From Haloimpatiens lingqiaonensis (GTDB lineage: Bacteria; Bacillota; Clostridia; Clostridiales; Clostridiaceae): a stretch of 46,224 bases of DNA. Both the position numbers and the translations under genes were made by a program. This document shows positions 8,188 through 46,224 of the stretch, one piece after another; within the stretch, counting starts at the first letter, position 1, and each line of letters begins with the position of its first letter. The notes beneath the pieces were generated by a model. The model searched no databases. It saw only the letters and a program-made list of their open reading frames with translations, and had not been told where the DNA came from. The stretch covers positions 1 to 46,224 of the forward strand of contig NZ_CABDWS010000018.1 in assembly GCF_901447495.1 (NCBI RefSeq). Reading direction: 5' to 3'.

Positions 8188-8820
8188 ATGAACCTTAAAG
8201 ATAGGGAACATTTTAAAAATAAACTTTTAAATCAAAAGAGGGATGTAGAAAACTTACTAAAGCAAATGGAAGACAATGATACTATAAATACTAATATGGG
8301 TTTAGAAGATGAATTATCCAATTATGACAATCATCCCGCAGACTCAGGTGGAAATCTCTACGAAAAAGAAAAGGGTATAGCACTTAAAGAACATGAAGTA
8401 ACTATAATAAAAAAAATTGACGATGCTTTAAGGAGCATTGAAGATGGATCCTATGGTAAGTGCAAAGGCTGTGGAAAAGAGATACTTAAGGAAAGATTAG
8501 AATTTATACCTTATGCACAGTACTGTACCAAATGCCAAAAGGAAGTTAATACTGCTGCTGTAGTGGATGAAAGGCCAGTGGAAGAAGAAGTATTAAGGAT
8601 GCCCTTCGGATATGGATATAATGATTTAACTGACAAAGTAGGATTTGATGCAGAGGATAGTTACCAAAGTGTAGAAAGATTTAACGAGCCTTATAATAGC
8701 TATAGTTCAATTAAATATTATAATTATGGAGATTTTCATGAGAGTGAGGATGAAATAGGTTATGTAGAGCCTATTGAAAGGGTAAGCAATTCTCAATATA
8801 AAAATCAATTACCAGATTAA
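8188..8820 (+). CDS. TraR/DksA-type C4 zinc-finger protein (YteA-like)
   Basis: The 210-residue protein has an N-terminal coiled-coil region, an acidic DNHPADSGGNLYEKEKG motif typical of the YteA subgroup, and a zinc finger CKGCGKEI...YCTKCQ at about residues 92-117. The rest is a poorly conserved tail. DksA-type proteins bind RNA polymerase through the secondary channel; the YteA subgroup is linked to sporulation in annotation, but the function is not established. The SD at 8173-8180 lies in a hairpin. The gene has its own transcription unit between a repeat and lspA. Confidence 0.82.
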   Translation: MNLKDREHFKNKLLNQKRDVENLLKQMEDNDTINTNMGLEDELSNYDNHPADSGGNLYEKEKGIALKEHEVTIIKKIDDALRSIEDGSYGKCKGCGKEILKERLEFIPYAQYCTKCQKEVNTAAVVDERPVEEEVLRMPFGYGYNDLTDKVGFDAEDSYQSVERFNEPYNSYSSIKYYNYGDFHESEDEIGYVEPIERVSNSQYKNQLPD

Positions 8821-42491: not shown

Positions 42492-43307
42492 ATGGAGGAT
42501 TCAAGAATTAATGTAGTTATTGCAGATGATAATAAGGAATTCTGTAATATCTTAAATGATTATTTAATGAGCCAAAGAGATATAATGGTATCAGGAATAG
42601 CAAAAGATGGATTAGAAGCATTAAGATTAATTGAAGAAAGAGAACCGGACTTGGTAATATTAGATATAATAATGCCTCATTTAGATGGATTGGGGGTATT
42701 GGAAAGAATTAATAGCATGGAAATGAAAAAAATACCTAGAATAATAGTATTATCTGCTGTGGGTCAAGATAAAATAACTCAGAGAGCAATAAATTTGGGA
42801 GCAGATTATTATGTGGTAAAACCTTTTGATATGGATGTATTTATAAAAAGAATAAGACAAATGTTTAATAATACCATATCTAATTGTGATATTGTAAAAA
42901 CTAATAATCGTTATCCAAAAGTAGAATCTAATATGAGTGATGAAAATAAACCAGTGGATTTAGAAACAGAAATAACAAATATAATTCATGAAATAGGAGT
43001 TCCAGCACATATTAAAGGTTATATGTATTTAAGAGAAGCTATAACTATGGTGGTAAACAATATAGAGTTGTTGTCAGCGGTTACAAAGGAATTATACCCA
43101 TCCATTGCTAAAAAGTATAATACTACCGCTAGTAGAGTTGAAAGGGCTATAAGACATGCTATTGAAGTAGCTTGGAGCAGAGGACAAGTTGATACAATTA
43201 ATAAGCTATTTGGCTATACTATACACAATGATAAGGGCAAGCCAACAAATAGTGAATTCATTGCTATGGTAGCAGACAAGCTAAGACTTAAAAATAAGGT
43301 TTCTTAA
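42492..43307 (+). CDS. spo0A: Sporulation master response regulator Spo0A
   Basis: The 271-residue protein has a receiver domain (about 1-125: acidic pair Asp12-Asp13, phospho-acceptor Asp58 in [10 protein letters not shown], Lys in VVKPFD) and the Spo0A C-terminal DNA-binding domain (about 155-268; [42 protein letters not shown]). It commits the cell to sporulation. The frame opens at 42462, but AAGGGAG and the family N terminus favour ATG 42492. A terminator follows at 43371. Confidence 0.97.
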
Positions 43308-43676
43308 GCCGCATGGTTGATGGATTTGTTAATTTTTTATATGGATAGACTATAGAAAAATCCCTATGGAACAGGTGGTTGGTATTTTGTCAAATTTATA
43401 TTAAAAAACCAACTAACTGTTTTTTAGGATAACAAACTAGTTATTAGATAAGCCTATAAACACTTCTATTATCAACTGCAGAAATGTATTTGAAAATGGA
43501 GGTGTTATTTTATTATGCAAAATTATTAAAATTGAAGAAGTATTTTTAGTATAATTAAAATAAATGATATATTTGTATTAAGAGAATAAATTTATACTTC
43601 AGCATGAATAAGTGAAGATAAAGTTAATGGTGACGCTGTTTTGTATATATACATAATATATAGAGAGGTGGTATAT
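43308..43676 (+). other. Gene-free gap between spo0A and the amidase gene
   Basis: This 369-bp AT-rich gap holds the spo0A terminator (43371-43425). Beyond that I see no ORF worth calling, no strong promoter and no repeat found elsewhere in the window. Confidence 0.6.
43371..43425 (+). terminator. Intrinsic terminator after spo0A
   Basis: ACAGGTGGTTGGT (43371-43383) pairs with ACCAACTAACTGT (43408-43420) with one mismatch and one wobble across a 24-base loop, then TTTTTT. Confidence 0.75.
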
Positions 43677-44336
43677 ATGAAAATAGCAATTGACATGGGA
43701 CATTGTGTATCTGGATATGATTTAGGTGCACGAAGTTTAGGGATTAAGGAAGAGTTTTTGACTAGAGAGGTTGGAAGAGAAGTAATAAAAAAACTTGGAT
43801 TTAGGAGTAGAGGGATTAAAGAAGGAAGTTGGATATATGTTGTGAGAAGGACTAAATGCCCAGCTATGCTTATTGAAGTTTGTTTTTTAGATAATAAAAG
43901 TGATATGGACATGTATAGAAGTTTAGGTAAAACTAAAATTGCAGAAGCAATTGTGAAAGGGTTAGAACTGGAGGATTTAAATTCCCAAAAGGATATTATA
44001 CAAAGTGATCCTATTCCAGAGTATAGGAAAAATAATATGGTTTTAAGGTTTCAAAAACAATTAAATATTCAATTTAATGCTAAGCTTGTAGAAGATGGCA
44101 TACTAGGTCCTAAAACTTTAGCTGCCTTGGTTAATGTTAAAAAAGGCGCTAAAGGTGAAATAACCAAAATAATTCAAGAAATATTGCAGAAAAAAGGATA
44201 TAATTTAGGTTCAGCAGGTGTAGATGGTGTATTTGGACAAATTACTGAAAATGTAGTGAAGGCTTTTCAAAAGCGTAGAAATCTAGTGTCAGATGGTATA
44301 GTAGGTATAAATACTTGGAAAGCTTTACTTGATTAA
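43677..44336 (+). CDS. Amidase_3-type N-acetylmuramoyl-L-alanine amidase with internal deletion, plus two peptidoglycan-binding domains
   Basis: The 219-residue protein starts like an Amidase_3 enzyme (MKIAIDMGHC with zinc ligand His9; KEEFLTREVG with a candidate zinc Glu) and ends that domain with GIKEGSWIYVVRRTKCPAMLIEVCFLDN (catalytic-type Glu67). The middle of the fold, including the S(I/L)HxNA segment with a zinc-binding His, is missing: EVIKKL (to residue 40) runs straight into GFRSRGIK. Two PG_binding_1-like repeats follow (about 118-160 and 165-218). It has no signal peptide. The frame opens at 43641, but the GAGGTGG SD fits ATG 43677. Peptidoglycan binding is likely; hydrolysis is doubtful. 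Confidence 0.82.
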   Translation: MKIAIDMGHCVSGYDLGARSLGIKEEFLTREVGREVIKKLGFRSRGIKEGSWIYVVRRTKCPAMLIEVCFLDNKSDMDMYRSLGKTKIAEAIVKGLELEDLNSQKDIIQSDPIPEYRKNNMVLRFQKQLNIQFNAKLVEDGILGPKTLAALVNVKKGAKGEITKIIQEILQKKGYNLGSAGVDGVFGQITENVVKAFQKRRNLVSDGIVGINTWKALLD

Positions 44337-44342
44337 AGATAA

Positions 44343-44372
44343 GTAATATTCCTCCTTGGTTTATCATAAATA
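44343..44372 (+). promoter_or_regulatory. Candidate sigma-E promoter of spoIIM
   Basis: GTAATATT (44343-44350) fits the sigma-E -35 form KMATATT, and CATAAATA (44365-44372) matches six of eight bases of CATACAHT, with a 14-bp spacer. The start would be near 44379-44381. SpoIIM is a sigma-E product in Bacillus. Confidence 0.45.
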
Positions 44373-44396
44373 TAATATGACGATAAACTGAGGAGG
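44351..44396 (+). promoter_or_regulatory. Hairpin that hides the spoIIM ribosome-binding site
   Basis: CCTCCTTGGTTTATC (44351-44365) pairs with GATAAACTGAGGAGG (44382-44396) over all 15 positions, two of them G-T wobbles. The 3' arm contains the AGGAGG SD of spoIIM. The loop is 16 bases. It could also act as a weak terminator for the amidase gene, as ATTTTATATAT follows. Confidence 0.72.
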
Positions 44397-44405
44397 ATTT
44401 TATAT

Positions 44406-45029
44406 ATGATAAGTAATGTTGAAAATAATTTGAATAGGCATATAAAAGAAAATACTTGGTTATACGTGGGAAGTATAGTATGCATTTTAATAGGAATGTT
44501 TTTGGGGGTGTATTGCGTTAAATATATGGGACAAGCTGAAAAAAACACTTTGTATGAGTATTTAAATAAATTTGTAGAAAATATATCCCTAACTAGTGCT
44601 GAACCTAAAGAAATTTTTATTCAAGCCATAAAAAATATTCTTCCAATGATTTTAGGTATATGGTTTTTGGGGTTAACTGTTATTGGAATACCTATAATAT
44701 TGATAATAGATATGGTAAAGGGATTTACCTTGGGATTTTCTATAAGCTCCTTAATAAATGCTTTAGGAATGAAAGGTATTTGGATGAGCATATTTGGACT
44801 TATCCCACAAAATATAATATATATACCCTGTATAGTATTTATATCTGTTTTGGCTATGGAGTTTTCATTATCTATGGTTAAAAACCGATTAAATAAGCAG
44901 TGGACCACAAATGTCATTAGTAAAATAGCTTCTTATTCAGTCATAGTAATGATTTGTACATTAATATGCTTTATTGGTTTTTTTATAGAGGGATATATAG
45001 TACCTCATATAATAAAAATGATACTTTAA
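44406..45029 (+). CDS. spoIIM: Stage II sporulation protein M
   Basis: The 207-residue membrane protein has about five membrane segments; SIVCILIGMFLGVYCVKYMG, LPMILGIWFLGLTVIGIPII and MVKGFTLGFSISSLI are SpoIIM features. With SpoIID and SpoIIP it forms the engulfment peptidoglycan-remodelling complex in the mother cell. The ATG is 9 bases after AGGAGG, which lies in a hairpin. It is followed by the XerD-like gene, as spoIIM and xerD are near each other in Bacillus. Confidence 0.93.
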   Translation: MISNVENNLNRHIKENTWLYVGSIVCILIGMFLGVYCVKYMGQAEKNTLYEYLNKFVENISLTSAEPKEIFIQAIKNILPMILGIWFLGLTVIGIPIILIIDMVKGFTLGFSISSLINALGMKGIWMSIFGLIPQNIIYIPCIVFISVLAMEFSLSMVKNRLNKQWTTNVISKIASYSVIVMICTLICFIGFFIEGYIVPHIIKMIL

Positions 45030-45050
45030 ATTTTTAAATTTTAAATTCTA

Positions 45051-45079
45051 TTGAAAAAATAATGAAATTAGTTTAATAT
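45051..45079 (+). promoter_or_regulatory. Likely sigma-A promoter of the XerD-like gene
   Basis: TTGAAA (45051-45056) and TAATAT (45074-45079) are 17 bp apart, 28 bases before the ATG. Confidence 0.45.
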
Positions 45080-45106
45080 ATTCTATGAGAGATTAGGTGA
45101 TTACAT

Positions 45107-45988
45107 ATGAATGAGTTAAATTTAATAGAATATGTAGAAAATTTGAGAAAAAAGAAATTAAGTGAAAATACCATAGAGGCATATAAAAGAGACATAAAAA
45201 GATATATAAAATTTTTAAGTGCCAGAGATGAAAAAATAAGCGAAGTAGATACAATAACTATAATGGCTTATGTTCAGGAACTTCAAAAGGGAAAAATGGC
45301 CAATAGTTCTATAGTGAGGAGTATAATTTCTATAAGAGGATTTTATGTATTTTTAATGAGTAAGGGAATAGTGGATGAAGATCCTACGTATAAATATGAA
45401 GTGCCTAAAGTTAAAAGAGATATACCAAAGGTATTGACGGTAGAAGAAGTAGATAAACTTTTAAATATGCCGGATTTAAGTAGCCATAAAGGTATAAGAG
45501 ATAAGGCAATGCTTGAGGTTATGTATGCTACAGGTATAAAAGTAACAGAACTGTTAAATTTAAATATTTATAGTATAAATTTAAAATTAGGATATATAAA
45601 GTGTAAAGGAACTAAGGAAAAAGAAAGAATAATTCCCATAGGTTCCTATGCATCAAATTGTATTGAAGAGTATTTGAAAATAAGGTCTAGCTTTAATGTA
45701 AACAATTTAGATTATTTATTTTTTAATTCGCAAGGAACTAAATTAACAAGGCAGGGATTTTGGAAAATCATAAAGGAATATGCTAAGGATGCAAAAATAG
45801 AGAAAAATATAAATTTATATACTTTAAGACATTCTTTTGCTGTGCATTTGCTTCAAAATGGAGCAGATATAAGAATAGTGCAGGAATTATTAGGACATAC
45901 AAGCATAGCAGCTACACAAATATATAGCAGTATTTCTAAAAAAAGTAGGATAGCAGAGGTATATAATAAAACTCATCCTAGGGCATAA
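45107..45988 (+). CDS. xerD: XerD-like tyrosine recombinase with two altered catalytic positions
   Basis: The 293-residue protein has the N-terminal SAM-like core-binding domain (about 1-90) and the catalytic domain (about 108-285). The alignment to XerD is clear: [44 protein letters not shown]. Arg241, His264 and nucleophile Tyr273 are present. The first catalytic Arg is Lys145 ([10 protein letters not shown]) and the HxxR His is Tyr238 (YTLR). Normal XerC/D resolve chromosome dimers at dif; activity of this version is uncertain. The gene has its own likely promoter after spoIIM. Confidence 0.88.
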
Positions 45989-46035
45989 TTATAATGATAA
46001 TATATTTACCATATGGATTTTAATTAAAATAATTT

Positions 46036-46071
46036 GATTATTTGATAAATTAAATACTTTATCAAATAATC
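46036..46071 (+). terminator. Hairpin after the XerD-like gene, probable terminator
   Basis: GATTATTTGATAAA (46036-46049) pairs perfectly with TTTATCAAATAATC (46058-46071), loop of 8. The following sequence is AT-rich but not a clean T tract. Confidence 0.55.
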
Positions 46072-46224
46072 ATAATATAAATTTTATATAAAAAAATAAG
46101 CAATTTGGTAATATGTCAAGAACAAAATAAAAGAAAAATGAAATGATTTCTTTAAAAAAGGGTAACCTTAACAAGCATACAGTCCAATAAGAATGTATGT
46201 TTGTATAATTATGAAATTTAATCT

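Follow-up and report, generated by a model that had tools for sequence, protein, structure and literature searches.

A putative sigma-E promoter interlocked with a Shine-Dalgarno-masking hairpin upstream of spoIIM in Haloimpatiens lingqiaonensis and other Clostridia

Two studies of Bacillus subtilis propose that a large hairpin forms in read-through RNA of sigG (spoIIIG), the gene downstream of spoIIGA-sigE, and that the transcript from the gene's own promoter does not form it (PMC5942855; PMC2530871). Similarly, a report on phage T4 describes long early transcripts of gene e, which encodes lysozyme, that fold their Shine-Dalgarno sequence (SD) into a helix (PMC3014915). Here we analyze a 46,224-nucleotide stretch of Haloimpatiens lingqiaonensis DNA (RefSeq assembly GCF_901447495.1, contig NZ_CABDWS010000018.1, forward strand; hereafter the window), in which the leader of spoIIM carries an element that appears, by analogy, to follow the same logic as the T4 gene e and sigG read-through hairpins, and to be unusual in its breadth and compactness.

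The differences from these systems are as clear as the likeness. sigG is another gene and belongs to another compartment (the forespore, with sigma-F/G), whereas the spoIIM promoter is of the sigma-E type and has the anti-SD arm between its -35 and -10 elements. T4 gene e concerns the timing of phage lysis and uses T4 late promoters, and its mechanism was shown experimentally, whereas the spoIIM case is a prediction. A second, small hairpin at the sigG ribosome-binding site also occludes that site, but it consists of five pairs wholly contained in the own-promoter transcript and dampens expression 2-4-fold (Mearls 2018; PMC5942855); the sigma-E RNA of spoIIM, by contrast, would lack the 5' arm. 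No description of a spoIIM leader hairpin was found in the open-licence literature searched.

We propose, with a probability of roughly three in four, that the spoIIM element combines a promoter with a read-through silencer. RNA running in from the upstream gene would contain both arms, so that a 16-bp hairpin would fold, the SD would be hidden and spoIIM would go untranslated. During sporulation, RNA polymerase with sigma-E would start in the loop and produce an RNA without the 5' arm, in which the SD is single-stranded. Because sigma-E acts in the mother cell, SpoIIM would be made only there. The element would stand in for a terminator where the intergenic gap is short. The start site, the read-through, the translational silence and the purpose are what we infer; the fold, the promoter pattern, its conservation, the co-variation of the arms and the link to a close co-directional neighbour were computed.

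Predicted hairpin and promoter in the spoIIM leader of the window

The features of the leader are as follows.

44343 to 44349, + strand: -35 element of the putative sigma-E-type promoter, GTAATAT (fits the profile from 84 of 116 spoIIM leaders aligned on CATA)
44350 to 44365, + strand: hairpin 5' arm (anti-SD arm), in the promoter spacer (from the fold and nested 5' ends)
44365 to 44372, + strand: -10 element, CATAAATA (from the sequence and the CATA-aligned profile)
44366 to 44381, + strand: loop of 16 nt, with the predicted sigma-E start at about 44379-44381 (from the fold; start judged from the -10 spacing)
44382 to 44397, + strand: hairpin 3' arm, which holds the SD GAGGAGG at 44390-44396 (from the fold and nested 5' ends)
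44406 to 45029, + strand: spoIIM coding sequence, 207 aa, ATG at 44406 (TIGR02831, E 3.3e-66; PF01944)

The minimum-free-energy fold of positions 44330-44440 contains one long stem of 16 bp, including two G-U pairs, and has an energy of -25.3 kcal/mol (z -3.83; 1 of 200 shuffles was equally good). An earlier note on this DNA had described the SD as the 3' arm of a 15-bp hairpin; the pairing of the SD is borne out, and the fold corrects the length to 16 bp. The same note had placed a sigma-E-like promoter across the 5' arm, and GTAATAT and CATAAATA are indeed present on either side of it, separated by 14 bases (between 44350 and 44365). The leader has what a sigma-E-type promoter calls for, a -35 element with ATA and a CATA-type -10 element at fixed spacing; an ATA -35 is also part of the C. 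difficile sigma-E motif (PMC3789822). Judged from this spacing, the spoIIM transcript would start in the hairpin loop.

Three of the features that define the T4 gene e and sigG kind of control have counterparts here: the SD is predicted to be paired in the long transcript, an internal promoter has its predicted start 3' of the 5' arm, and a co-directional gene lies upstream with no separate terminator-like site detected. The terminator scan, which covered 43200-46224 and found none, admits only loops of 3-8 nt and is blind to the 16-nt loop of the spoIIM hairpin. In positions 43300-45100, no Rfam family (Rfam 15) reached its gathering score; three matches with E up to 1 were all below it.

To quantify masking, we computed the cost of opening the spoIIM SD, which was 14.9 kcal/mol in the read-through RNA and 0.6 kcal/mol in the sigma-E RNA. 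For nested 5' ends at or before 44350 (four tried), opening cost 14.9-15.8 kcal/mol; with a 5' end at 44354, where the first four bases of the arm are lost, it dropped to 7.2 kcal/mol; and for the nine 5' ends tried from 44358 on, it was 0.5-1.2 kcal/mol. Any start 3' of CATAAATA should therefore free the SD, and the expectation of the earlier note that a sigma-E transcript without the 5' arm keeps its SD free agrees with these values for all starts from 44358 on. The long and the short RNA thus differ by 14.3 kcal/mol, a value that one of 3000 dinucleotide-shuffled leaders attained.

We then ranked spoIIM among 313 genes with a clear SD and a 130-nt leader, sampled from 446 kb of its own genome (20 kb from the beginning of each of contigs 1-17, two further stretches of contig 5, one further stretch of contig 12, and the window). 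When the start was set at -26 throughout, spoIIM ranked first (14.3 kcal/mol, compared with a 99th percentile of 9.5). It was also first of the 313 in promoter score with the window omitted from the profile, a profile that, being drawn from other spoIIM leaders, favours spoIIM. The leader of the window gene at 8188-8820 also has a strong SD hairpin (CTCCTTTA...TAAAGGAG), without a sigma-E-like promoter.

Recurrence and arm co-variation across Clostridia

For comparison, spoIIM was found in 53 of 58 genomes of a relatives set and in 98 of 147 genomes of a class-wide draw. The class-wide draw was read in part: from the 98 genomes with a match we took 30 listed loci, some of them also in the relatives set, and 40 fetched stretches, leaving out the weakest-scoring remainder. 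With duplicates removed, the relatives set and the class-wide draw together gave 119 spoIIM matches and, after L051, L053 and L054 were dropped for want of a usable start, 116 leaders; 111 of the 116 were kept for the energy measure, five having too weak an SD. A separate phylum draw supplied the 30 best loci of 55 genomes with a match, the window among them. The relatives set used for energies includes the window and L066; most of its genera are represented by a single genome, and two genomes come from outside the order. For each leader, the cost of opening the SD was compared between the long RNA and an RNA whose 5' end lies 14 bases 3' of the C of CATA. Start codons were picked by the strength of the SD, and some of these choices are incorrect (e.g., L048), which blurs the counts. 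A first metric, the average probability of upstream pairing of the SD (at least 0.7 in 50 of 108 spoIIM leaders, and in 23% of shuffles), was replaced by the opening energy because incorrect starts and long SDs weakened its signal.

Truncation lowered the cost of opening the SD by 4 kcal/mol or more in 66 of all 111 spoIIM leaders and in 37 of the 49 in the relatives set, where the median difference was 6.9 kcal/mol. Among controls treated alike, this threshold was reached by 5 of 30 leaders of spoIID, 6 of 30 of spoIVA, 3 of 28 of spoIIIAA and 1 of 33 of the other genes in the window; sigG, the known precedent, reached it in 17 of 26. A profile-free version with a fixed start at -26 gave a similar picture at 5 kcal/mol or more (31 of 47 relatives and 23 of 30 sigG leaders; spoIID 4 of 29, spoIVA 4 of 30, spoIIIAA 0 of 19, window genes 1 of 35), and its sigG count suggests that the clostridial sigG leaders (L216-L245) have counterparts of the B. 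subtilis read-through hairpin. The earlier note had recommended checking whether the spoIIM leaders of other clostridia show this overlap, and the result was positive: 19 of the 34 sampled Clostridia families have at least one case. In other classes of the phylum, 14 of 29 loci reached 4 kcal/mol, and eight of these also had a promoter score of at least 12.

The plan of the leader recurs much alike: a -35 element, a 14-nt spacer, CATA, a loop, and the SD as the 3' arm. CATA occurs at -56 to -26 in 84 of 116 leaders, and aligning these leaders on CATA alone revealed a (G/T)(C/A)ATA block 17-21 bases upstream. Their spacers share a C/T bias and no other consensus, which leaves room for one DNA segment to serve as both promoter and silencer. 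In 78 of 111 leaders, SD pairing is mainly to bases that lie 5' of the predicted start and would be absent from the sigma-E RNA; in four of 111, pairing of the SD to bases within the sigma-E RNA reaches 0.4 or more. In family f23 (L062, L064, L067, L069-L071), stems follow the pattern GGGCATAAC.../...TGCCCGGAGG; they include the -10 element and pair no more than the edge of the SD.

Among the genes compared, the device is not general for sigma-E genes: it is rare in spoIID, spoIVA and spoIIIAA and reaches 4 kcal/mol in 7 of 24 leaders of sigK (one of 25 dropped), whose -10 element is of the sigma-E/K type. The sigK leaders L316, L317, L318 and L308 show a similar SD hairpin around a CATA -10.

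In Clostridium sp. KNHs214 (L035), a genus mate, the 3' arm is identical to that of the window and the 5' arm has four changes: two turn G-U into Watson-Crick pairs, one turns A-U into G-U, and one breaks a pair. Because a bulge shifts the outer stem in several members and blunts pair counts by alignment column, we added an alignment-free test in which arms were swapped between species. Among spoIIM leaders with a promoter score of at least 9, cognate arms paired at -13.0 kcal/mol and non-cognate arms at -8.5 kcal/mol (0 of 5000 permutations as good; z -16.4, n=89); with one leader per family z was -5.1 (n=25), and with the SD left out it was -8.3 (n=86). Controls, scored at their best site whatever its score, gave z -0.8 for spoIID and z -1.2 for spoIIIAA; for spoIID, one sequence without a possible pair spoiled the means, and the permutation z alone was used. 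In a column alignment of 14 of the 20 listed leaders of the window's family, preselected for promoter and hairpin, the covariation score exceeded all 500 shuffles and all slid versions, and 75.9% of cells paired, compared with 42-57% when the partner was slid.

Upstream neighbours and alternative explanations

The gene that would supply the read-through RNA in the window is the following.

43677 to 44336, + strand: upstream co-directional gene for an amidase-like protein with a peptidoglycan-binding domain (Pfam Amidase_3, C-terminal part only; PG_binding_1)

Its stop codon lies 69 nt 5' of the spoIIM ATG and 14 nt 5' of the hairpin 5' arm. A hairpin whose role is to silence read-through would be required where the stop of a co-directional gene is only a short distance upstream. 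A hairpin (at least 4 kcal/mol) was found in 53 of 69 leaders with a co-directional stop codon at most 130 nt upstream and in 13 of 42 without one; the corresponding counts were 47 of 62 and 19 of 49 at a cut of 110 nt, and 55 of 73 and 11 of 38 at 150 nt. Within family f1, 17 of 18 leaders with a close co-directional gene had the hairpin, compared with 6 of 16 without. Terminator-like sites in the gap, detected by a home-made scan with the SD hairpin excluded, were present in 3 of 66 leaders with the hairpin and 8 of 45 without (Fisher p 0.048).

The upstream genes are varied. They are NUDIX-like in 53 of 115 loci by tblastn, with the family confirmed for L004; in ten picked hairpin loci, the upstream proteins were DUF3866 (three), pyrroline-5-carboxylate reductase (two), NUDIX, NT5C, Spo0A and RuvB (one each) and one unmatched, and in the window's genus the upstream protein is an amidase. 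This variety indicates that the hairpin belongs to spoIIM and not to whichever gene precedes it. Of the 53 hairpin leaders that have a close neighbour, 36 have the upstream stop codon 7-22 nt 5' of the arm (median 15), and in three it overlaps the arm. Since 7-22 nt is about the reach of a terminating ribosome, such a ribosome would hardly melt the arm.

It is fairly probable that an ancient compound element, consisting of a sigma-E promoter with an anti-SD arm encoded in its spacer, insulates spoIIM from read-through across Clostridia and beyond, and is gained and lost with a close co-directional neighbour. A number of observations weigh against the proposed silencer. The device is not universal, as 45 of 111 spoIIM leaders fall below 4 kcal/mol, and the sigK count shows that spoIIM is not alone in having it. 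The association with neighbours has exceptions on both sides: 16 of 69 leaders with a close co-directional gene are below 4 kcal/mol (L092 and L094 have a close neighbour and no hairpin), and 13 of 42 without such a gene retain the hairpin (L066, L001, L038 and L123 have a strong hairpin and no callable close neighbour). Moreover, the 130-nt cut was picked after the data had been seen, with 110 and 150 nt pointing in the same direction. In the arm swap, spoIVA shows some excess of cognate pairing (z -3.0), and a promoter-score filter was applied to the spoIIM leaders alone. Of the 16 pairs in the 14-leader alignment, 10 changed on both sides, a number reached by 31 of 500 shuffles; one slid version had more double-changed cells (21 vs 20), and related sequences are not independent. 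Lastly, differential expression of the spoIIM-like gene CD1221 was not seen in the transcriptome of a C. difficile sigE mutant (PMC3789822), and SpoIIM is dispensable in that species (PMC6221140). The CD1221 result could fit a sigma-E start masked by read-through, and also fits an absence of sigma-E control, which is unproven in C. difficile.

Some of these data could also be read differently. If the stem served as a terminator or attenuator, alone or in addition to masking the SD, read-through RNA would end just after the SD and before the start codon, and the sigma-E RNA, unable to form the stem, would escape, with the same outcome for spoIIM. The window has TTTTATAT directly after the 16-bp stem, with 6 T in 8, and at least 5 T in the 8 bases after the stem were found in 11 of 66 hairpin leaders compared with 3 of 45 without hairpin (controls: spoIID 0 of 30, spoIVA 2 of 30, spoIIIAA 1 of 28, window genes 1 of 33, sigG 4 of 26). 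The mean number of T after the stem, 2.98 with the hairpin and 2.31 without (p 0.046), likewise speaks for termination and against our proposal. However, 55 of 66 hairpin leaders lack a T tail, the T-rich ones being commonest in families f2 and f3, and in the window part of the TTTTATAT T run is paired in the fold and the loop measures 16 nt. We consider termination unlikely as the explanation, and it may add to SD masking at the same stem in some lineages. In L026, L027, L030, L037, L049 and others, a T run follows the SD stem directly 5' of the start codon, so that the stem could double as a terminator there.

It is quite improbable that a sigma-E promoter merely coincides with a chance or generally dampening SD hairpin that has no read-through logic. 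Such a coincidence would suit the 45 of 111 leaders in which the hairpin is weak or absent, and B. subtilis sigG provides a known example of a small SD hairpin that dampens expression (PMC5942855), but it does not account for the preference of the SD for partners 5' of the predicted start over partners inside the sigma-E RNA, nor for the arm co-variation and the neighbour link. We give even less credence to the idea that the dyad at the sigma-E promoter serves as a DNA operator bound by a dimeric regulator, with the RNA hairpin as a by-product. The palindrome does overlap the promoter, and its inner stem (ATCAT...ATGAT) is fairly constant in family f1; however, the outer arms vary strongly between species with complementarity kept, G-U pairs break the DNA symmetry, and the spacing of the arms is widely variable. 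The co-variation of the arms argues for an RNA helix over a DNA operator.

If such an ancient, widespread element exists, it would represent a general alternative to the terminator in tightly packed sporulation loci, and would account for sigma-E dependence going unseen where only RNA levels are measured. If the combined promoter and read-through silencer is real, the position of the transcription start would set the timing of an engulfment protein, and RNA-seq or array counts of spoIIM RNA would give a wrong picture of when the protein appears. The link between neighbour and hairpin would then be a natural experiment on how developmental genes are insulated without ordinary terminators.

The locus and its variation

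The 3' end of the window carries spoIVB, spo0A, the amidase-like gene, spoIIM and xerD, all in one direction. The amidase-like protein has 219 aa and lacks an internal stretch of about 75 residues found in the 294-aa copy of KNHs214 (L035, 2042-2926), and it matches the Amidase_3 profile at no more than positions 106-173 of 174; because of the truncated match and the missing stretch, it is probably not a working enzyme. By eye, L035 has a sequence resembling the 3' end of spo0A at about 1800-1891, just 5' of the amidase gene and after unrecognised sequence, an arrangement suggestive of an element inserted close to the end of spo0A. Comparison of the window with a plasmid collection gave no match. 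In a second genome of the same genus (G001; L034 and L058), spoIIM is split between frames and the leader hairpin is retained; spoIID of this genome is also split, so assembly errors are possible for its split spoIIM.
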